A stretch of 28,969 nt of DNA, taken from IMG/VR virus record IMGVR_UViG_3300036859_000781, positions 1 to 28,969 of that record; one strand, 5' to 3'. The notes beneath the pieces are model-generated. The model made no database searches and had not been told where the DNA came from. It worked only from the letters and a program-made list of their open reading frames with translations. Source of the stretch: a virus. Positions 4,042 to 18,135 of this stretch are shown here, one piece after another. How positions within the stretch are numbered: position 1 is the first letter of the stretch; every line of letters starts with the position of its first letter. The position numbers were made by a program, and so were the translations under genes.

Positions 4042-6408
4042 ATGGACGCCCACAAGAACTTCGCGTACAGCACAGTCGCCTCCGCGCCCAGTCCGGCCGA
4101 TTCCGGGTTGACGCTCGCGGTGGCGGCAGGGCATGGCGCGAGGTTCCCGGCGCCGCCGTTCAACGCCACGGTGCACGCCGCGAACGAGATCCCGGTCCCC
4201 ACGAACGCCGAGGTGTTGCGCGTCACCGCCGTCGACGGCGACGAGTTGACGATCCTCCGGACGCAGGAGGGCTCGACCGCCCGCACGGTCCTTGTCGGCG
4301 ACTCGATCTTCGCGGCCATCACGGCGAAGACGCTTACCGACATCGAGGACGCGCTGCCCGGACCCACAGGGCCGACCGGCCCGACGGGACCCGCTGGCGC
4401 TATCGGACCCACAGGGCCGGCTGGTGCCGACTCGACCGTGCCTGGCCCCACGGGCGCCGCTGGCGCTACGGGTCCTGGAGGCCCGACTGGTCCCACAGGG
4501 CCGACCTCCACGGTGGCTGGTCCCACGGGCCCGACAGGTGCCACAGGCGCAACCGGGCCCACCGGACCAACAGGCCCCGCGTCGACGGTCGCTGGTCCAA
4601 CCGGCCCCACGGGCGCCAACAGCACCGTCGCAGGTCCAACCGGCCCCACGGGACCGACGGGACCTACGGGACCGACCGGTGCGAACTCGACGGTCGCGGG
4701 TCCGACGGGGCCTACCGGTCCGACCGGCCCGACAGGAGCGGGCTCGACCGTTGCCGGTCCCACTGGACCGACCGGCCCGACGGGAGCCACGGGTCCGACC
4801 GGTGAAAAGGGCGGGCTGCGCTACAACTTCTCGACGACGACGACGAACGCCGATCCCGGTCAGGGCGTATTCCGGTACAGCAACGCGACGATCGCCGCGG
4901 TGACCAGCATCTACATCGACCTGCTGGACCAAGGCGGCGTCGATCAGACCGCCTTCATCGACAGCTGGGACGACAGCAGCTCGACGGTGAAGGGCTACCT
5001 GGTCATCAAGTCCAACACCGGAACGATCGTCAACGTCTGGCAGGTGGACGGGTGGGTCACCCAGACGGGATACCGCCGGATCCAAGTCACCTTCGTCTCT
5101 GGAACGCTGCCTGCGAACGGTGAGGCGTGCGTCGTCGAGTTCATCCGCAGCGGAGACATGGGAACGGCAGGTCCCACGGGGCCGACAGGACCGACCGGTC
5201 AGACCGGCAGCACGGGGCCGACCGGACCCACGGGCGCGAACAGCACCGTGGCCGGGCCGACCGGGCCTACGGGTCCCACCGGAGCGACGGGAGCGACCGG
5301 GCCGACTGGAGCGAACTCGACCGTGGCCGGTCCCACGGGCCCGACCGGACCCACAGGCCCGACGGGTCCCACCGGCGCGCAGGGCGGGCTCCGCTTCAAC
5401 TTCTCGACGACAACGGCCGACGCTGACCCTGGCCAGGGCGTGTTCCGCTACAACAACGCCACCATCGGGAGCGTCACGTCCATCTTCATCGACCTCCTCG
5501 ACCAGGGCGGGGTCGACCACTCGGCGTTCATCGACTCGTGGGACGACAGCACATCCGCGGTCAAGGGCTACCTCGTCATCAAGTCGAATGCGAACGGCGA
5601 TGCCACGGTGAACGTGTGGCGCGTCGACTCTTGGACGACGGCCTCCGGATACCGGAAGATCGGCGTGACGTTCGTCTCGGGCGCGCTGCCGTCGGACACA
5701 GAGGCGTGCACCATCGAGTTCACGCGCACCGGCGACCTCGGCGCCACCGGGCCTACGGGACCCACAGGCCCGTCCGGCGCGACCGGGCCCACCGGGCCGA
5801 CCGGAGCGAATAGCACCGTCGCGGGTCCCACCGGCCCCACGGGACCTACCGGTCCGACGGGGCCCACGGGCGCGAGCGGGCCCACGGGTCCCACCGGGCC
5901 GGCAACGGCGTTCTACAACGCGAACTCGACTGACGTCGTCGCGAACGCTACCGACACCTACCTCACGGGGTCGGACATCAACGTCGTCGGCCACCTGAAG
6001 ATCGGCAGCATCCTCTACTGGCGGATGGTCGCGTCGAAGAGCTCGGCCGGAACGGCAGTCCCCGCCTGGAGCATGCGCGCTGGCAACGGCGGGACGATCA
6101 CTGACACCGCGCGCTGCACCGCGACGGGAGTGGCCCAGACCGCGCTGACGGATTTCGGCATCTTCGAAGTCACGGCAGTGGTCCGCGCGACCGGCGCCAC
6201 GACCGTCATCCAGTCCAATTTCAACTTCCGCCACTCGAACACCGTGTCGGGCTTCGCGAACCAGGCCCAGGAGATCATCCGCAACTCTCTCTCCACGGCG
6301 TTCGACGCAACCTCGCTGGGCACGCGCGTCGGGCTGTCGGTCAACCCGGGCACGGCCGGAGTGTGGACGTTCCAGATCGTCGCGGCCTACCTGGACAACG
6401 GCATCTGA
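4042..6408 (+). CDS. Collagen-like tail fibre protein with duplicated internal domain
   Basis: A 788-residue fibre. Residues 1-100 match the common phage tail-attachment domain ([52 protein letters not shown]). Three collagen-like Gly-Pro-Thr blocks follow at about residues 107-256, 376-449 and 568-621. They are interrupted at intervals by STVAG-type breaks (nine counted). Between the blocks are two copies of a globular domain (about 258-373 and 449-567), both starting GGLR(Y/F)NFSTTT and sharing [19 protein letters not shown] and FIDSWDDS. The C-terminal knob (about 622-788) is cysteine-poor and beta-rich. Collagen-like repeats form trimeric triple helices in phage fibres, so this is probably the host-contact fibre. 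Long open frames on the other strand here come from the GGNCCN repeats. Confidence 0.9.
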
Positions 6409-7475
6409 TGCGCTTCCACCTCCTGTCGCTTCCGAACGTCCAGACCACGAAGGCCTACTCGCTCGACGGATTCGCCATGGCGACGATCCGATTCGCGCGC
6501 CTGTTGAAGGGTCTTGGGCACACGGTATTCCTCTACGCCAGCGAGGAGAACGAGGCGCCGTGCGACGAGCTCATCACGACCATCACGAAGGAGGAGCAGC
6601 ACGTGCTGCTCGACGGCTGCGAATACCAGTACGCGGCCATGGAGAGCCGGTTTGCGCTCTGGGCGCTCGCCAACCCGCGGATGGTGGCCGAGATCGCCAA
6701 GCGGAAAAAGGAGCGCGACATCATCGCCGTCATCGGTGGCACATCCCACGAGCCGATCGCGAACGCGCACCCCGACCTGATGACGGTTGAATACTCGATC
6801 GGGTACGTCAGCAGCTTCGCCAAGTACCGCGTCTTCGAAAGCCACTACTGGCGCGCGATGACGCACGGGTTTCAGCAGGCCTGGGAAGGCCGCTACTTCG
6901 ACGCGGTGATCCCGCTGTTTTTCGATCCGGCGGAGTTTCAGTTCCGCTCGACGAAGGAGGGGTTCGCCCTCTATGTCGGACGGCTGATTCCTAACAAGGG
7001 ACTGCTGACCGCGTGCCTCGCGGCCCGCCACGCTGGAATCCCGCTGAAGGTGATCGGTCACGGCGATCCAGCGCTCGTGACGCACGGCGCGCAGTACCTG
7101 GGCGCGCTGCCGATGGCCGAGCGCAACGACCTCATGTCCCGGGCCACCGTTCTCATCTGCCCGACGCACTACGTGGAGCCTTTCGGGAGCGTCGCCGTCG
7201 AGGCCCAGATGTGCGGCACGCCCGTGGTGAGCACGGACTTCGGTGGGTTCGTGGAGACGGTCGAGAACGGCCGGACCGGGTACCGGTGCAGCTACCTGGG
7301 GGAGTTCGTTTCCGCCGTGCGTGCCGCGTCGTTGCTCGATAGGCACTACATCCGCGCGCGCGCGGAGCGGCTCTACTCGATCGAGGCGGTGGCGCAGCAG
7401 TACGAGGACTACTTCAAGCGCCTCCAACTGCTGTGGGGCGAGGGCTGGAACAGCCTCCAGGTGCTCGAATGCTAG
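6408..7475 (+). CDS. Glycosyltransferase, GT-B fold, family 4-like
   Basis: A 355-residue glycosyltransferase. The ATG shares one base with the fibre stop (TGATG), so translation is coupled to the fibre. The C-terminal half carries the GT4 nucleotide-sugar site: YVGRLIPNKGL, then VIGHGDP, LGALPMAERNDLMSRA, and EPFGSVAVEAQ with the E-x7-E pair E257/E265, then GTPVVSTDFGGFVETV and NGRTGY. The N-terminal half is an acceptor domain starting RFHLLSLPNVQTTKAY. It has no membrane segment, so it works in the cytoplasm. The acceptor is not shown by sequence. The coupling suggests it modifies the fibre, whose Thr-rich Gly-Pro-Thr repeats could take O-linked sugar; host glycans or phage DNA are alternatives. 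Confidence 0.85.
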   Translation: MRFHLLSLPNVQTTKAYSLDGFAMATIRFARLLKGLGHTVFLYASEENEAPCDELITTITKEEQHVLLDGCEYQYAAMESRFALWALANPRMVAEIAKRKKERDIIAVIGGTSHEPIANAHPDLMTVEYSIGYVSSFAKYRVFESHYWRAMTHGFQQAWEGRYFDAVIPLFFDPAEFQFRSTKEGFALYVGRLIPNKGLLTACLAARHAGIPLKVIGHGDPALVTHGAQYLGALPMAERNDLMSRATVLICPTHYVEPFGSVAVEAQMCGTPVVSTDFGGFVETVENGRTGYRCSYLGEFVSAVRAASLLDRHYIRARAERLYSIEAVAQQYEDYFKRLQLLWGEGWNSLQVLEC

Positions 7476-10820: not shown

Positions 10821-11075
10821 ATGCGATTCAAGTTTCCGCGGTTCAAGTGGCCGCGCCTGCGCTGGCCATCGTGGTCGATCGACAAGTGGGACGCGCTCAC
10901 GCTCGCGGGCACCGCGCTGCTGGGCGCAGGGGTGTGGATGCGTTGGGGCGCGCCCTGGGCGTTCATCCTGCTGGGCTCGTTCGCGCTCGGGCTAGCGGCG
11001 TTGCACGCGCTGATCCTGGCGCTGGTGGACGCGATCGCGGCGGCGCGTAATCGCCGCCAGGTGGGGAACCGATGA
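10821..11075 (+). CDS. Small two-TM membrane protein with basic-aromatic N-terminal repeat
   Basis: An 84-residue protein starting at ATG one base after the large-terminase stop. Residues 3-18 (FKFPRFKWPRLRWPSW) are a repeating aromatic-basic-Pro unit likely to lie along the membrane surface. Two hydrophobic segments follow at about 25-40 and 45-68, and the C-terminus is Arg-rich. Small membrane proteins of unknown role occur between terminase and portal in several phage groups. It may tether packaging or assembly to the membrane, or be an accessory lysis or exclusion protein. Its stop overlaps the portal start (ATGA). No catalytic motif is visible. Confidence 0.65.
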   Translation: MRFKFPRFKWPRLRWPSWSIDKWDALTLAGTALLGAGVWMRWGAPWAFILLGSFALGLAALHALILALVDAIAAARNRRQVGNR

Positions 11076-13018
11076 GCCTCCTGGCCGAAGTCTTCAACCC
11101 GCGGCCGCTCGCGTCGTCGGGCCCGGTCGCGCCGGCTTACGGCACCGAGCCGCTGAGCTCGTTCTGGTACACGTCCGACCCCAGCGGCTGGGTGAGCGAG
11201 CGCGGGCCTGTCGGCATGAGCGCTGACACCCTCCTCCGCTGTGGCACCGTCTACGCCGCCGTCGGGTTCCGCGGCGACTCGTGGGCGATGTCCCAGCCGT
11301 CCACGTTCAAGCGCACCGCGGACGGCCGTGAAGAGCAGCCGAACCACCCTTCGCAGATCGTGCTGCGAAAGCCGAACCGGTGGCAGACGGGGAACCGGTG
11401 GCGTCACCTCAACGGCGTGCGAATGGCGCTGTGGGGGAACGCCTACAACGAGATGAAGGGAGGCGACCGCTCGTTCGCCGACGAGCTCTGGCCTCTCGAC
11501 CCGTGGCGCTGCCGCGTGGTCGACCAGCGCAATGACGGGTCGCTCCTCTACGTGTACACCGACAAGGTCGATGGCGAGCGCCGGCTCGGCCAGGAGCGGA
11601 TGCTCCGCTTCCACGACCTGAGCACCGACGGGCTGCGCGGCGTCGACATGTACCGCCTCATCAGGAACATCGTAGGCATCGCGCTCCTGGCCGAGCAGCA
11701 CATGACCACGTTCCTGACGAAGGGGACGCGGATCTCCGGGCTGCTGGTTCCGACCGACCCGCTCGAACCCGAGCAGCGCCAGCAGCTGCGCGACAGCGTC
11801 AACAGCGACCTGGGCGGAGCCAGCAAGACGGGCACGCTCGGAATCCTGCCTTACGGCGTGAAGGTCGAGAAGATCGACACCACGCACCGCGACGCCCAGT
11901 TCCAGGAGCTCTCGGACGGCGTTGTCGGCGCGATCCTCCGTTTCCTGCGCGTGCCGGGGTTCGTCGTCGGCTACCAGGGTGACAAAGCGAACACGTACGC
12001 GAGCGCGAAGGAGACGGCCCAGGAGGCGCTCCGCCACACCGTGCTGCCGATCATCACGAACGTCGAGGCGGAGGAGGAGAAGGCGCTCCTGCCCGATGGC
12101 TCCGGTCTACAGATCAAGCACAACCTCGACATCCTCCTCCGCGTGAACACCAAGGACCGCTACGAGACCCTGGTGAAGGCGACCGGCCGGCCGTTCATGA
12201 CGGGCAACGAGGCCCGCACCGTCGAGGACATGGACCAGGTTACGGACGACCCGTCGATGAACCGCGTCCTCATGCCCTCCAACCACACGGACGGCACCGA
12301 TCCGGATGGCGAGGGCGAGGAGACGGACGCGACGCTCGAGGCCGCGCGCACCGCGCAGACGAGCGTGGCGGAGGCCCGGCTCACGGCCGCGGCGCTCACG
12401 ATCCAGAAAATCTACCTGGGCGTCGACATCGTGCTCACCACCGAAGAGGCCCGCGCGATGGTGACCCAGATGGGCTTTCCGCTGCCAGGCGACATCCCGG
12501 GCGGTCGCAAGCCTGCGGCGCCGCCGCCGTTCGGCGCTCCGGGCGCGCCGCGCCCCGCGCCCGCGCCGAGTGGCGCGCCCGAGCCCGACGAGGCGGAGGT
12601 CGAGGAGGACGCGGCGTCCGTCGCGAAGCGCGCGGAGTTGCTCGCGGTCCAGGCCGCGCTCCAGGCCGACGACCAACTCCAGGTGCTGCGCTCTCGCGCC
12701 GCGCGCGCCGAGTGGCTCGCGGCACAGGCCGCGCTGGTTGCGGTGCGACGGGAGATGAACACCGCGCGGGAGAAGGCTCCGAAGCTGGCGCGCGACGCGC
12801 AGCGCTGGAGCGCCTGGCTCGCGGACCTCTACCGCGGCCGCCACTTCGACTACCTGGTGAGGGCGCTCGACCTCCCGGTCGACGTCGCTCGGTCCTGGTG
12901 CGAGGCGCAGCTGGCCGCGCTGGCTGGCGGAGGCTTGGCGGTCATGGAGACGTGGGAGACGGACGCCGCGCCGCGGTTGGCGGCGCTGGTGCTGGGGGAA
13001 GGGGAGACGCGATGCTGA
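11072..13018 (+). CDS. Portal protein, HK97-type
   Basis: A 648-residue portal. The HK97 portal core covers about residues 45-400 (MSADTLLRCGTVYAAVGFRG, NGVRMALWGNAYNEM, FHDLSTDGLRGVDM, FLTKGTRISGLLV, FQELSDGVVGAILRFLRVPG, ETAQEALRHTVLPII). The C-terminal third is longer than usual: an acidic linker, an Ala/Pro-rich stretch near residues 480-515, then an Ala/Arg/Glu helical tail to the end. The dodecamer forms the packaging channel and joins head to tail. Start is ATG in an ATGA overlap with GGTGGGGA before it. The extended helical tail could serve as an assembly arm. The stop lies seven bases inside the protease gene. Confidence 0.93.
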   Translation: MSLLAEVFNPRPLASSGPVAPAYGTEPLSSFWYTSDPSGWVSERGPVGMSADTLLRCGTVYAAVGFRGDSWAMSQPSTFKRTADGREEQPNHPSQIVLRKPNRWQTGNRWRHLNGVRMALWGNAYNEMKGGDRSFADELWPLDPWRCRVVDQRNDGSLLYVYTDKVDGERRLGQERMLRFHDLSTDGLRGVDMYRLIRNIVGIALLAEQHMTTFLTKGTRISGLLVPTDPLEPEQRQQLRDSVNSDLGGASKTGTLGILPYGVKVEKIDTTHRDAQFQELSDGVVGAILRFLRVPGFVVGYQGDKANTYASAKETAQEALRHTVLPIITNVEAEEEKALLPDGSGLQIKHNLDILLRVNTKDRYETLVKATGRPFMTGNEARTVEDMDQVTDDPSMNRVLMPSNHTDGTDPDGEGEETDATLEAARTAQTSVAEARLTAAALTIQKIYLGVDIVLTTEEARAMVTQMGFPLPGDIPGGRKPAAPPPFGAPGAPRPAPAPSGAPEPDEAEVEEDAASVAKRAELLAVQAALQADDQLQVLRSRAARAEWLAAQAALVAVRREMNTAREKAPKLARDAQRWSAWLADLYRGRHFDYLVRALDLPVDVARSWCEAQLAALAGGGLAVMETWETDAAPRLAALVLGEGETRC

Positions 13019-14109
13019 GCCTGCTGCAGATGGTGGCCGGAAAGCCGTGGGCGATCCGCGGCGACATGGCGGCGCACGTTCACGGGATGGTGAAGCGCGA
13101 CGGCATCGCCGGCCTGCGCCACCTGGCGGAGTTCAAGGCGAAGGTGCACGCCTTCGACGACGACGACGGCGGAGCGCCGAGCGTCAACGCGATGCGCCCT
13201 CGGGTCCTGGGATCGGTGGGCGTCGTCTCCGTCCTCCAGGTGCTCACCGCGCGCGGCGACATCGTGGGCAGCGCGGAGACGCGCAGCACCATGGCAGTCG
13301 CTCGCGACGTGGCGGCGCTGGCGGGCGACTCGCGCATCGACGCGATCGTCCTCGAGCTCGACAGCCCTGGCGGGGAGGTCTCCTACATCCCGGAGGCCTA
13401 CGGCGTGATCGCCGCCGCCGCCAAGGTCAAGCCGGTGGTGGCCGTCACGAACGGCCAGGAGGCCAGTGCGACCCTCTACCTCGGGGCGGGGGCCACCGAG
13501 AAGTTCGTCACGCCGTCCGGTCAGATCGGATCGCTGGGCGTCTACATCCTGCACGTCGACGAGTCGAAGGCGCTGGACAACGAGGGCCTGGCGTTCGAGT
13601 TCATCGTCGCCGACGGATCGCCGTACAAGGTCGAGGGCAACAGCACCGGCCCGCTCAGCGAGGAGGCGCGCGCGCACCTCCAGAAGTGGGTGAACCACTA
13701 CATGGGCATGTTCGTCCGCGACGTCGCGAAGGGCCGCCACGTCTCGACCGGACACGTCCTGAAGCACTTCGGCCAGGGCCGGATGTTGAGCGCCGAGGAG
13801 GCGGTCGCCGCGAAGCTGGCCGACACGGTGGGCACGCTCGAGCAGGCAGTCCGCCGGGCCGAGCAGCTGGGCGCCGCCGCCAGGCGCGGACGCACCAGCG
13901 CCCCGCGCGCCGCGTTCGACATGGGCGCGCCGTCGGCCACGCACGAGTGCTCACGCTGCGCGGCTGGTGAGGCGGGCACGCACGCGGACCCGTCGGCGAC
14001 GTTCTCGCCCCACGAACCGCAGGAGCCGGCGGATGCGCCCCCCGTCGAGCCGGCCCCGGCCGTGGGCCTCACGCCTGCCCAGGCGCTGGCTCGGAAGCGC
14101 GCGCTGTGA
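13012..14109 (+). CDS. Prohead protease, S49 (SppA/lambda C) family
   Basis: A 365-residue serine protease of the S49 Ser/Lys type. Visible motifs are LELDSPGGEV (D117-V123), the nucleophile S152 in QEASATLYLG, the downstream QIGSLGVYILH, and K206 in GSPYKVEG, which lies in the position of the conserved lysine of lambda C (about 54 residues after the serine). The core ends near residue 280. The tail (about 300-365) is Pro/Ala-rich with a HECSRCAAGEAGTH Cys/His cluster and may act as a scaffold-like or regulatory region. A strong GGGGGAAGGGGAG precedes the ATG. It should cleave capsid N-termini during maturation, consistent with the long N-terminal region of the capsid protein. Confidence 0.9.
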   Translation: MLSLLQMVAGKPWAIRGDMAAHVHGMVKRDGIAGLRHLAEFKAKVHAFDDDDGGAPSVNAMRPRVLGSVGVVSVLQVLTARGDIVGSAETRSTMAVARDVAALAGDSRIDAIVLELDSPGGEVSYIPEAYGVIAAAAKVKPVVAVTNGQEASATLYLGAGATEKFVTPSGQIGSLGVYILHVDESKALDNEGLAFEFIVADGSPYKVEGNSTGPLSEEARAHLQKWVNHYMGMFVRDVAKGRHVSTGHVLKHFGQGRMLSAEEAVAAKLADTVGTLEQAVRRAEQLGAAARRGRTSAPRAAFDMGAPSATHECSRCAAGEAGTHADPSATFSPHEPQEPADAPPVEPAPAVGLTPAQALARKRAL

Positions 14110-14297
14110 GCGATGACGTGCCGGCCTCGACACGCCAGAAGGGTCGCCCGCGAAAGCCGGAGAGTGAGCGCCGCAGCGTGCGGCTGCGCGCCTACATGAC
14201 GCCCGACGAGGCCGAGCGGCTCTACCAGGCGGCGCGCGCGGAGCGCAAGACGGTTTCGGAGCTCATCGCCGATCGCTGCCTCCGGACAGTTTCGTGA
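14106..14297 (+). CDS. Ribbon-helix-helix DNA-binding protein
   Basis: A 63-residue protein starting at GTG within the protease stop (GTGA). After a basic QKGRPRKPESERR arm (AT-hook-like) comes one strand, SVRLRAY (24-30), and two helices, TPDEAERLYQAARAERK (32-48) and VSELIADRCL (50-59), the layout of ribbon-helix-helix (CopG/MobC-like) repressors. These bind DNA as dimers through the strand pair. A DNA-binding protein between prohead protease and capsid genes is unexpected; the structured leader immediately downstream (14298-14497) is an obvious candidate target. A role in capsid-gene regulation or in packaging is inference. Confidence 0.8.
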   Translation: MSDDVPASTRQKGRPRKPESERRSVRLRAYMTPDEAERLYQAARAERKTVSELIADRCLRTVS

Positions 14298-14497
14298 ACC
14301 CTCAAAAATACGGACCGGAGAAAGTGCTGCTAGCGTAGCCGCCGAACCGAGGACCCACCCGCCCGACGGCGCGAAGGGTCGCCCCGCGAGATCGCGTTTC
14401 CCCGACGAGGAGCGCTGAGCGGCAACCGAGAGCCAGATTTCTCGGTGCCCGCCAGCGCTCTTCGTGCTTCCGGGCACCCGCCCGGAGGAAACGTCCG
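14298..14497 (+). promoter_or_regulatory. Structured leader of the capsid gene with two competing hairpins
   Basis: This is the longest gap without a credible gene among the head genes. It starts with an AT-richer patch (14298-14335) that might hold a promoter, though no clear -35/-10 pair is seen. Then come nested repeats: GAGCGCTG (14410-14417) with CAGCGCTC (14453-14460), enclosing CCGAGA (14426-14431) with TCTCGG (14440-14445). An alternative hairpin pairs GGTGCCCG (14444-14451) with CGGGCACC (14471-14478), with AGC/GCT inside. The two folds share bases and cannot coexist. GGAGGA (14484-14489) follows, eight bases before the capsid ATG. Individual stems this short can arise by chance; the overlap and position make a regulatory leader plausible. 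Confidence 0.45.
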
Positions 14498-16150
14498 ATG
14501 CGCCTCATTCCGCCGCTCCTGCAGATCACGACCGTGATTCTGCTGACGCTGGCCGTGCTCGTCTCCATCCTGCTGTCGACCGCCGCCAGTCGCGGTGGTG
14601 GCTCCGTTGCGATCTTCCGCACCCTGCGCGCGGTCGGCTTCGACCAGCGTCGAGCCCGAAACATCGCGATGGCGGCGGCCGCTGTTCTGGCGATCCGGCT
14701 GCCGTCCTGGTCCACCTACCGCCTCGCCGGCGGCGCCGACAGGGTGAACGAGCTCCGCCAGGAGGTCATCAACTGCAAGGGCAACGAGAACAGCCGCCAG
14801 CGCGCGCTGGACGGACTGCTCGCTGAAGAGAGCTCGACCCGTACCGCGGTCAACGCGCTCCTGGAAAGGGTGGTCGCCGGTAAGGCGACACCCGAAGAGC
14901 AGGCCTCCGTACCGAACCAGGAGAAGGCCCTGGCCTCGTTCGAGGCGCGCATCAACGCGGCCCGGTCGCTGGTCGCGAACGCCGCAGACGACGTGCTGAA
15001 GGCGGAGAAGGCGCTCCTGGCGGAGGAGAAGCGGATCTCCGCCGAGGACGCTTCGCTCGCCGCGCGTCCCTCCGGCCGCGTCGAGGTGGTCGAGGACCAG
15101 GCGGCGAAGTGGGCCAAGGACCCGAAGCGCGGCTACGAGAGCCACAGCGACTTCATGACGGACGTCATGATCTCCAACTCCACGGGCCACATGGACCCGC
15201 GCCTGAAGCCGCTGGCGACCCAGGGCTCCGACGAGCAGCAGGGCGCCAGCAACCCCTACGGCGGGTTCTTCGTACCCACGGCGGTCATGCCCGGCGTGCT
15301 GAGCATCGGTCCCGAGCTCGACCCGTTCGAGGGTCGCGTCACGCCGATCCCGATGACGGCCCCGTCGGTGAAGTTCAACGCGCGGGTCGACAAGAACCAC
15401 GCGACGAGCGTCTCCGGCGGATTCCGCGTCTACCGGCGACCGGAGACGGTCGACGGTACCCCGAGCCGCGCAGCGTACGAGCAGGTCACGCTCACGGCCA
15501 ACGAGGAGACGGGCGTCGCGTTCGCCACCGAGTCGGTCATCAACGACTCGCCCGAGTCGTTCGTCGCGATCATCACCGCGGGCATCGCCGACGAGTACGT
15601 CGCGGCGGCGATCCAGGAGCGCGTGAACGGCACCGGCGTCGGCGAGCGGCAGGGCTACATGGTGACGCCCTGCAAGATCACGATCGACAAGGAGGCCAAC
15701 CAGGCCGCGGACACCATCACGGTCGAGAACATCGACAAGATGGCCTCCCGCTGCTGGCGGTACGGCCAGTCGATCTACCTCGCGAACCACACGACCCGCC
15801 CGTCGCTGCGCGGTCTCGTGCGCATCGTGGGGACGGGCGGCGTGCCGGTGCCCTACTTCACCCAGAACACCGAGGGACAGGAGTTCCTCGACGGCCGGCC
15901 GATCTTCTTCACCGAGTTCGCGCCGGCGATCGGAGACCTCGGTGACCTCGCGCTGATCGTGCCCTCCCAGTACCTCGAGGGCACCTACCAGAGCGAGCAG
16001 TTCGCGGAGTCGATGCACGTGCGCTTCCTCGCGAACGAGCGCGCGTTCCGGTTCTACCGCCGGAACGACGGTCAGTGGTGGTGGCGGACGGCGCTGAGCC
16101 CGAAGAACGGCCTATCGCTGTCGCCCGTCGTTCTGCTGGGCGCGCGGTAG
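14498..16150 (+). CDS. Major capsid protein, HK97 fold, with N-terminal membrane-like segment
   Basis: A 550-residue capsid protein. The HK97 fold runs from about residue 210: SDFMTDVM, NPYGGFFVPTAVMPGVL, VKFNARVDKNH, ATESVINDSPESFVAIITAG, EEFLDGRP-type (EGQEFLDGRPIFFTEF) and DLALIVPSQYLEG. Residues 83-190 are a helical delta-like scaffolding region expected to be removed by the S49 protease upstream. Residues 7-30 (LLQITTVILLTLAVLVSILL) form a strong TM-type segment, followed by a second weaker hydrophobic stretch near 57-67; such a front is unusual for this family. The start is supported by GGAGGA at 14484-14489. Codon use is uniform across the N-terminus, so it appears to be truly encoded. 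If a shorter start is used, ATG 14671 would remove the membrane segment. Confidence 0.93.
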   Translation: MRLIPPLLQITTVILLTLAVLVSILLSTAASRGGGSVAIFRTLRAVGFDQRRARNIAMAAAAVLAIRLPSWSTYRLAGGADRVNELRQEVINCKGNENSRQRALDGLLAEESSTRTAVNALLERVVAGKATPEEQASVPNQEKALASFEARINAARSLVANAADDVLKAEKALLAEEKRISAEDASLAARPSGRVEVVEDQAAKWAKDPKRGYESHSDFMTDVMISNSTGHMDPRLKPLATQGSDEQQGASNPYGGFFVPTAVMPGVLSIGPELDPFEGRVTPIPMTAPSVKFNARVDKNHATSVSGGFRVYRRPETVDGTPSRAAYEQVTLTANEETGVAFATESVINDSPESFVAIITAGIADEYVAAAIQERVNGTGVGERQGYMVTPCKITIDKEANQAADTITVENIDKMASRCWRYGQSIYLANHTTRPSLRGLVRIVGTGGVPVPYFTQNTEGQEFLDGRPIFFTEFAPAIGDLGDLALIVPSQYLEGTYQSEQFAESMHVRFLANERAFRFYRRNDGQWWWRTALSPKNGLSLSPVVLLGAR

Positions 16151-17685: not shown

Positions 17686-18135
17686 ATGTTCGGCAGCACC
17701 GCAAAGCCCTTCCGGCGCGCGGCCGCTCTGGTCGCGGCGCTGGTACTGCTGGGCGCGCCCTACGCGCGGGCGGCCGGCACCGTCACCACCAACGAGACCA
17801 CCCACACCAGCGTCCGGAAGATCGTCTTTTCGTGGACGTCCGCCGTGGGCGGGGCCGCGGACGGAACGTCCACCGCCGTGTTCGACGGGAAGCTCCTGGG
17901 GCTTACGACCATTCCGTCCGGCGGCGGCACGGCGCCCGCCGACAACTACGACGTCGTCGTCAACGACGCGGCTGGCCACGACGTGTTGCTCGGCGCCGGC
18001 GCCAACCGCGACACGGCCACCACGGAGCACGTCGCGGGCGACAGCCTGGGCGCGATCGCCGGCACGAAGCTCACCCTGGGCGTCACGAACGCCGGCGACG
18101 CCAAGCAAGGCACCGTCATCCTCTACGTGCGGTAG
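17686..18135 (+). CDS. Small protein with apparent signal peptide, unknown function
   Basis: A 149-residue protein preceded by GAGGAGG. Residues 1-30 look like a Sec signal peptide: basic FRR at 9-11, hydrophobic core AAALVAALVLLGA and an ARAAG cleavage region near 29-30. The mature part is beta-rich, Gly/Thr/Ala-rich and cysteine-free (VRKIVFSWTSAVGG, NYDVVVNDAAGHDVLLGAGA, LTLGVTNAGDA, GTVILYVR), a layout seen in small phage virion proteins of the head-tail region. The signal peptide is at odds with a virion assembly role in the cytoplasm. Either the leader is only a hydrophobic N-arm, or this is an exported accessory (moron-like) protein. The terminators on its 5' side suggest separate expression. 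Confidence 0.65.
   Translation: MFGSTAKPFRRAAALVAALVLLGAPYARAAGTVTTNETTHTSVRKIVFSWTSAVGGAADGTSTAVFDGKLLGLTTIPSGGGTAPADNYDVVVNDAAGHDVLLGAGANRDTATTEHVAGDSLGAIAGTKLTLGVTNAGDAKQGTVILYVR

Follow-up and report, generated by a model that had tools for sequence, protein, structure and literature searches.

The usual picture of HK97-type head assembly is one of soluble subunits coming together. The major capsid protein (MCP) encoded in one virus record (IMGVR_UViG_3300036859_000781, positions 1 to 28,969; these 28,969 bases are the window analysed here) opens with a strongly hydrophobic, membrane-type segment. We asked whether this segment is genuinely part of the capsid precursor, whether other phages carry anything comparable, and what it could do in head assembly.

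The capsid gene and its start codon

The head genes and the parts of the MCP discussed below are located as follows.

11072-13018: portal
13012..14109, + strand: S49-type head maturation protease, directly upstream in the head module (PF01343, E = 1.6e-28; PHROG 53, E = 1.1e-53)
14106-14297: NikA-like ribbon-helix-helix ORF of 63 aa between protease and MCP (PF21983, E = 9.9e-6, slightly below the cut-off)
14407..14463, + strand: strong hairpin in the MCP 5' leader (-47.4 kcal/mol, z = -6.0)
14484..14489, + strand: Shine-Dalgarno sequence GGAGGA, 8 nt ahead of the ATG (from the sequence)
14498..16150, + strand: MCP precursor of HK97 type, 550 aa, with N-terminal membrane-type module (PF05065, E = 2.2e-15)
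14516..14587, + strand: predicted TM segment 1, residues 7-30 (Wimley-White -11.0, Kyte-Doolittle 2.53; model helix 6-32)
14588..14644, + strand: basic linker, residues 31-49, with a short helix 35-45 (charge count; model)
14645..14719, + strand: second, weaker hydrophobic segment, residues 50-74, including Arg67 (Wimley-White -2.5 for 56-74; helix 50-66)
14735..15064, + strand: delta-like scaffolding coiled coil, residues 80-189 (pLDDT about 95; alignment with relatives)
15260..16075, + strand: Pfam-matched part of the HK97-fold capsid body, residues 255-526 (PF05065; model; fold search)

The start of the protease (ATG 13012) was picked by eye within an ORF that opens at 12712.

The MCP reading frame (14498-16150) is open throughout, and its N-terminal extension is genuinely coded, starting at 14498. 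GC content by codon position is 0.67/0.56/0.86 in frame across the extension versus about 0.67/0.73/0.67 upstream, and the codon-usage log-likelihood is +25 for 14498-14743 in frame versus -27 for the preceding 246 nt. The synonymous-only coding score of the extension (13.1) was matched by none of 2000 shuffles. The GGAGGA that the first-pass annotation had cited in support of this start is confirmed, and its position matches the GGAGG of relatives that lack the TM segment. The leader as a whole, made up of hairpin, GGCACCC, GGAGG and ATG, aligns with that of four such relatives (L018, L019, L149 and L138), whose MCPs use the same ATG and then pass straight into the coiled coil. The module was therefore inserted directly behind the start codon, or lost from that place in the kin. 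Two codons further in could serve as starts, ATG 14669 (residue 58) and GTG 14744 (residue 83), and neither has a Shine-Dalgarno sequence ahead of it. No internal start with a ribosome site was found at the beginning of the MCP body either, so the module should be present on every copy of the protein.

Most homologues do begin near the equivalent of residues 80-83, where the coiled coil starts, as an alignment of their starts had been expected to reveal if the segment were spurious. The observation stands, and the refutation drawn from it does not, since the segment has been inserted immediately after the start codon and since hydrophobic extensions occupy this N-terminal position in 11 MCPs (see below).

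None of 200 shuffles of the leader hairpin was as stable. The hairpin is also found in L018 and, in a looser alignment, in L019, L149, L002 and L138, all of them relatives without the TM segment; it has no match in Rfam. Many other MCP leaders (L121, L108, L105, L064 and L026) contain a terminator-like hairpin and U-run just 5' of the ribosome site, an odd position ahead of a highly expressed gene.

Hydropathy and predicted structure of the precursor

The MCP matches PF05065 with 57.3 bits (cut-off 24.2) and also PHROG 10. Its AlphaFold model (mean pLDDT 85, from a 55-sequence alignment) has the HK97 fold, with three N-terminal helices (6-32, 35-45 and 50-66) followed by a coiled coil (80-126/132-189) and the HK97 body. 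A search of the PDB with this model returned HK97-type capsids at the top, the RcGTA capsid first (E = 7.8e-14) and HK97 itself (1ohg) with E = 3.7e-11. About 80 residues thus precede the delta domain, comprising a strong TM-type helix (7-30) and a weaker hydrophobic one (~50-74).

Hydropathy, coding signal and model agree with the first-pass annotation that a TM-type segment stands at the front of the MCP, beginning at 14498 and preceding the delta-like coiled coil, and that a second, weaker segment follows residues 7-30. On the Wimley-White octanol scale, residues 7-25 reach -11.0 kcal/mol, which makes them the most hydrophobic 19-mer among the window genes tested (Kyte-Doolittle maximum 2.53); the weaker stretch is that at residues 56-74 (-2.5). 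The portal has no strong hydrophobic segment, its best 19-mer scoring only -1.6. Residues 26-55 contain six K/R versus one D/E. Given the composition of the sequence, the clustering of hydrophobic residues is only moderately unlikely, 228 of 10,000 residue shuffles being equally good. The real evidence for the extension is its comparison with 118 MCP N-termini together with the purifying selection seen in L003 and L004, not hydrophobic clustering alone. That the segment spans a membrane is predicted from hydropathy and the model.

Membrane-type modules on other head proteins

We surveyed 118 distinct MCP N-termini, collected in searches for proteins similar to the MCP of the window and of its kin. 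About 11 of them have a hydrophobic 19-mer with a strongly favourable score in front of the body (window, L003, L004, L020, L049, L064, L105, L106, L107, L121 and L148), a proportion that is somewhat enriched because a TM-bearing MCP served as the query that brought in L105, L106 and L107; the others start with a polar coiled coil. Segments of several carriers have TM length and score between -9 and -13 kcal/mol. In nearly all carriers there are at least two hydrophobic segments, and the last of them ends near the delta helix; L148 scores three, and the second segments of some carriers are weak. No TM-type N-terminus was seen in 33 prophage MCPs from genome contigs or in about 25 more from whole genomes, and the nearest cultured relatives (Bradyrhizobium phage ppBdUSDA122-1, Streptomyces phage Dagobah and Caulobacter phage Kronos) are without the segment.

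A tree of 113 shell bodies cannot accommodate the trait with fewer than eight changes, and every one of these is forced by well-supported branches. The row closest to the window (L012) lacks it, and the near-identical shell bodies of L048 and L049 differ in that L049 has a TM-type insert directly after the ATG, which is absent from L048. The extensions are under purifying selection, strongest toward their N-terminal ends: dN/dS for L003/L004 is 0.30 over 100 codons and 0.10 over the first 25, and that for L064/L105 is 0.23, with 0.05 in the first 26 codons.

Two module types recur. Module a consists of TM - VxVxxxxMGxEHxxPW - TM and is found on the MCPs of L003, L004 and L020. Module b consists of RDKRKWFAANFGRxYFxSxPL followed by two hydrophobic segments; its carriers are four PF05065 MCPs from different branches (L064, L105, L107 and L121) and the MCP of L108, which belongs to another sequence family (PF25209; PHROG 4523). 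Module b thus spans two MCP families that share no sequence, and in our scan it was always at the MCP N-terminus. Scores between members of a module reach z of 7-13 (block shuffles and shuffled Smith-Waterman). L049, L148 and L106 each have a module type of their own. In L171 and L172, module a sits on a lambda-D-like decoration protein, encoded between a ClpP-like protease and a lambda-E-type MCP:

L172:3968-5263: decoration protein D-like gene with module a

The theme thus extends beyond the delta domain of the MCP.

Residues 1-82 of the window MCP gave no significant score in hhalign or shuffled Smith-Waterman comparisons against module a (MGxEHxxPW), and none against module b with its R(D)KRKWFAANFGRxYF motif before TM1; kinship of the window module with either was rejected on these scores. 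Direct relatives of the window N-terminus were found neither in IMG/VR nor in cultured phages, and searches of Pfam and PHROGs with the modules gave nothing meaningful. A scan for module b in 398 genomes of Bradyrhizobium's phylum yielded one weak match, which was rejected since it resembles an NADH-dehydrogenase (NuoN-type) membrane protein.

Without exception, the prohead protease is followed by the carrier as the next head gene. This protease is of S49 type for the window, L003, L004, L020, L049, L121 and L148, ClpP-like for L064, L105, L106 and L172, and of S78 type for L107 and L108. The modules are portable and recur on head proteins encoded directly after the protease. Tentatively, we regard them as one class, which may take in a decoration protein and two MCP families that have no sequence in common, each time immediately after a prohead protease. 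The earlier suggestion that release would depend specifically on the S49 protease is not supported: module b adjoins S49, ClpP-like (L064, L105) or S78 (L107, L108) proteases, and many phages with S49-type proteases have no TM segment on their MCP.

Two neighbouring loci deserve mention. Directly 3' of the L108 MCP (4806-6056) lie three tandem, similar ORFs of 128 aa (MTATGTGF...), perhaps decoration or fibre proteins. The gene 5' of the L172 decoration gene (63-2432) has a signal-peptide-like beginning.

Membrane anchoring and the alternatives

The explanation we favour, with belief and doubt about equally divided, is that the module is a membrane anchor on the head precursor, one that collects precursors at the inner membrane and that the prohead protease takes off together with the delta domain. 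The MCP would be made as a three-part precursor of anchor module (residues 1-79), delta scaffolding coiled coil (80-189) and HK97 shell body. The two hydrophobic helices of the module would enter the host inner membrane during translation, and two crossings would leave the delta domain and body in the cytoplasm. Head precursors would thereby be concentrated at the membrane, where the procapsid would start or assemble; the protease encoded just upstream would then cut off delta and anchor, freeing the shell for DNA packaging. Membrane insertion, topology, assembly site, membrane-bound procapsids and cleavage are all steps that we infer; the segment itself is coded, lies at the start of the MCP and, in comparison with close kin, is an insert following the start codon. 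Pieces of this kind on other head proteins, even unrelated ones, point to a tethering of head building to the cell membrane in some phages. As a general scheme, which we put forward with some reserve, portable anchor modules grafted behind the start codons of head-shell proteins may tie head building to the membrane, and maturation cleavage may undo the tie.

The main difficulty is one of topology. Delta domains of HK97-type proheads point toward the procapsid interior, which is a problem for assembly on a flat membrane, and anchors on every subunit would therefore need an internal membrane patch or an enclosed vesicle. It is more likely that only nucleating subunits stay anchored, or that anchors are pulled out during shell closure. 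If the delta domain is cytoplasmic, the basic linker behind TM1 of the window MCP is in poor accord with the positive-inside rule. The second segment of the window is weak and holds an arginine (Arg67), and a scaffold anchor offers no easy account of the fusion to a decoration protein. Most relatives do without the module, and that of the window has no detectable relative. In favour of an anchor stand the coding evidence, the strongest hydrophobic segment of the window, the TM-type N-termini of other MCPs with mostly two or more segments, the repeated changes of the trait on the tree, purifying selection, module swaps, the lack of an internal start and the T4 precedent (see below).

The swapping of modules among unrelated head proteins, the decoration protein included, would also be expected if the module were a small membrane protein in its own right, carried by an abundant head protein and freed by the prohead protease. 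The conserved polar motifs of modules a and b, needless for a plain anchor, and the position of all modules directly downstream of the protease favour such a polyprotein. However, no free-standing module was found in IMG/VR or the phage collection, no cleavage site is known, and a TM ORF just 5' of the MCP is nearly absent from those relatives without a TM segment that were checked (the exception being a marginal frame of 209 aa in L006), on which ground we also rejected the fusion of a small TM gene that is separate in relatives. We consider a polyprotein unlikely, and a holin-like protein, a superinfection exclusion protein or a host-membrane effector to be doubtful candidates for its product.

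A role without any membrane is rather improbable. Here the hydrophobic helices would meet inside the procapsid as an added scaffold core and be removed with delta, an arrangement that suits their place at the end of an inward-pointing domain. The TM length and strength of the segments in several cases (above) and the basic-aromatic stretch typical of a membrane interface with which module b opens argue against it, and module a on an outer decoration protein would make no sense.

A mis-called start, with translation from GTG 14744 or ATG 14669 and the TM segment an artefact, would agree with the starts of most homologues and is very improbable, being rejected on the strong coding signal and codon usage from 14498 on, the homologous leader and ribosome site before that ATG, the lack of such a site at the inner starts, and the conservation at protein level of like extensions in L003/L004 and L064/L105.

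If membrane anchoring is right, it has partial precedents. T4 heads assemble on the inner membrane and are freed after maturation cleavage (PMC9958956; PMC3185693), a process that involves the portal gp20, the chaperone gp40 and YidC (PMC9958956). T4, with its portal starter on the membrane, is the known membrane-bound head assembly of a tailed phage that we met in this analysis. Membrane-started heads freed by cleavage would work alike in the window phage; in T4, however, the portal initiator binds the membrane surface, whereas here the hydrophobic segment lies within the shell precursor itself. The major coat protein pVIII of filamentous phages likewise has a TM helix and waits in the inner membrane (PMC3185693). 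It differs from the window MCP, whose segment is predicted, in its unrelated fold, in keeping the TM helix in the virion and in the extrusion of the phage, whereas the window encodes a tailed-phage precursor from which the segment is probably removed.

The scaffold domain of an HK97-type capsid has been described (PMC3185693). HK97-type MCPs with a delta domain (PF05065: HK97 gp5, T5 pb8 and the RcGTA capsid) share fold, coiled coil and upstream protease with that of the window. Ordinary PF05065 MCPs start directly with the coiled coil, whereas the window MCP adds about 80 residues with a strong and a weak TM-type helix. The lambda-type decoration protein D (PF02924) of L171 and L172 has a similar module layout, sharing MGxEHxxPW with L003, L004 and L020, but its module is not on an MCP and has no detectable sequence link to that of the window. 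A full-text literature search, with most subscription papers outside its reach, brought up no account of HK97-type MCPs with TM segments, and the novelty of such segments is likely, if not proved.

Were the anchor reading true, membrane-tied head assembly would be a recurring strategy, with many gains or losses of the segment and its exchange among unrelated head proteins, and prohead proteases would act as release switches. It would also call for caution against trimming such MCP starts during annotation.

Two further features of the window were noted. A small protein encoded three genes 3' of the MCP (17686-18135) has a signal-peptide-like start (KPFRRAAALVAALVLLGAPYARAA) and no PHROG match. 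In the tail-side region, a collagen-like-repeat protein is encoded beside a glycosyltransferase (4042-6408 and 6363-7475).
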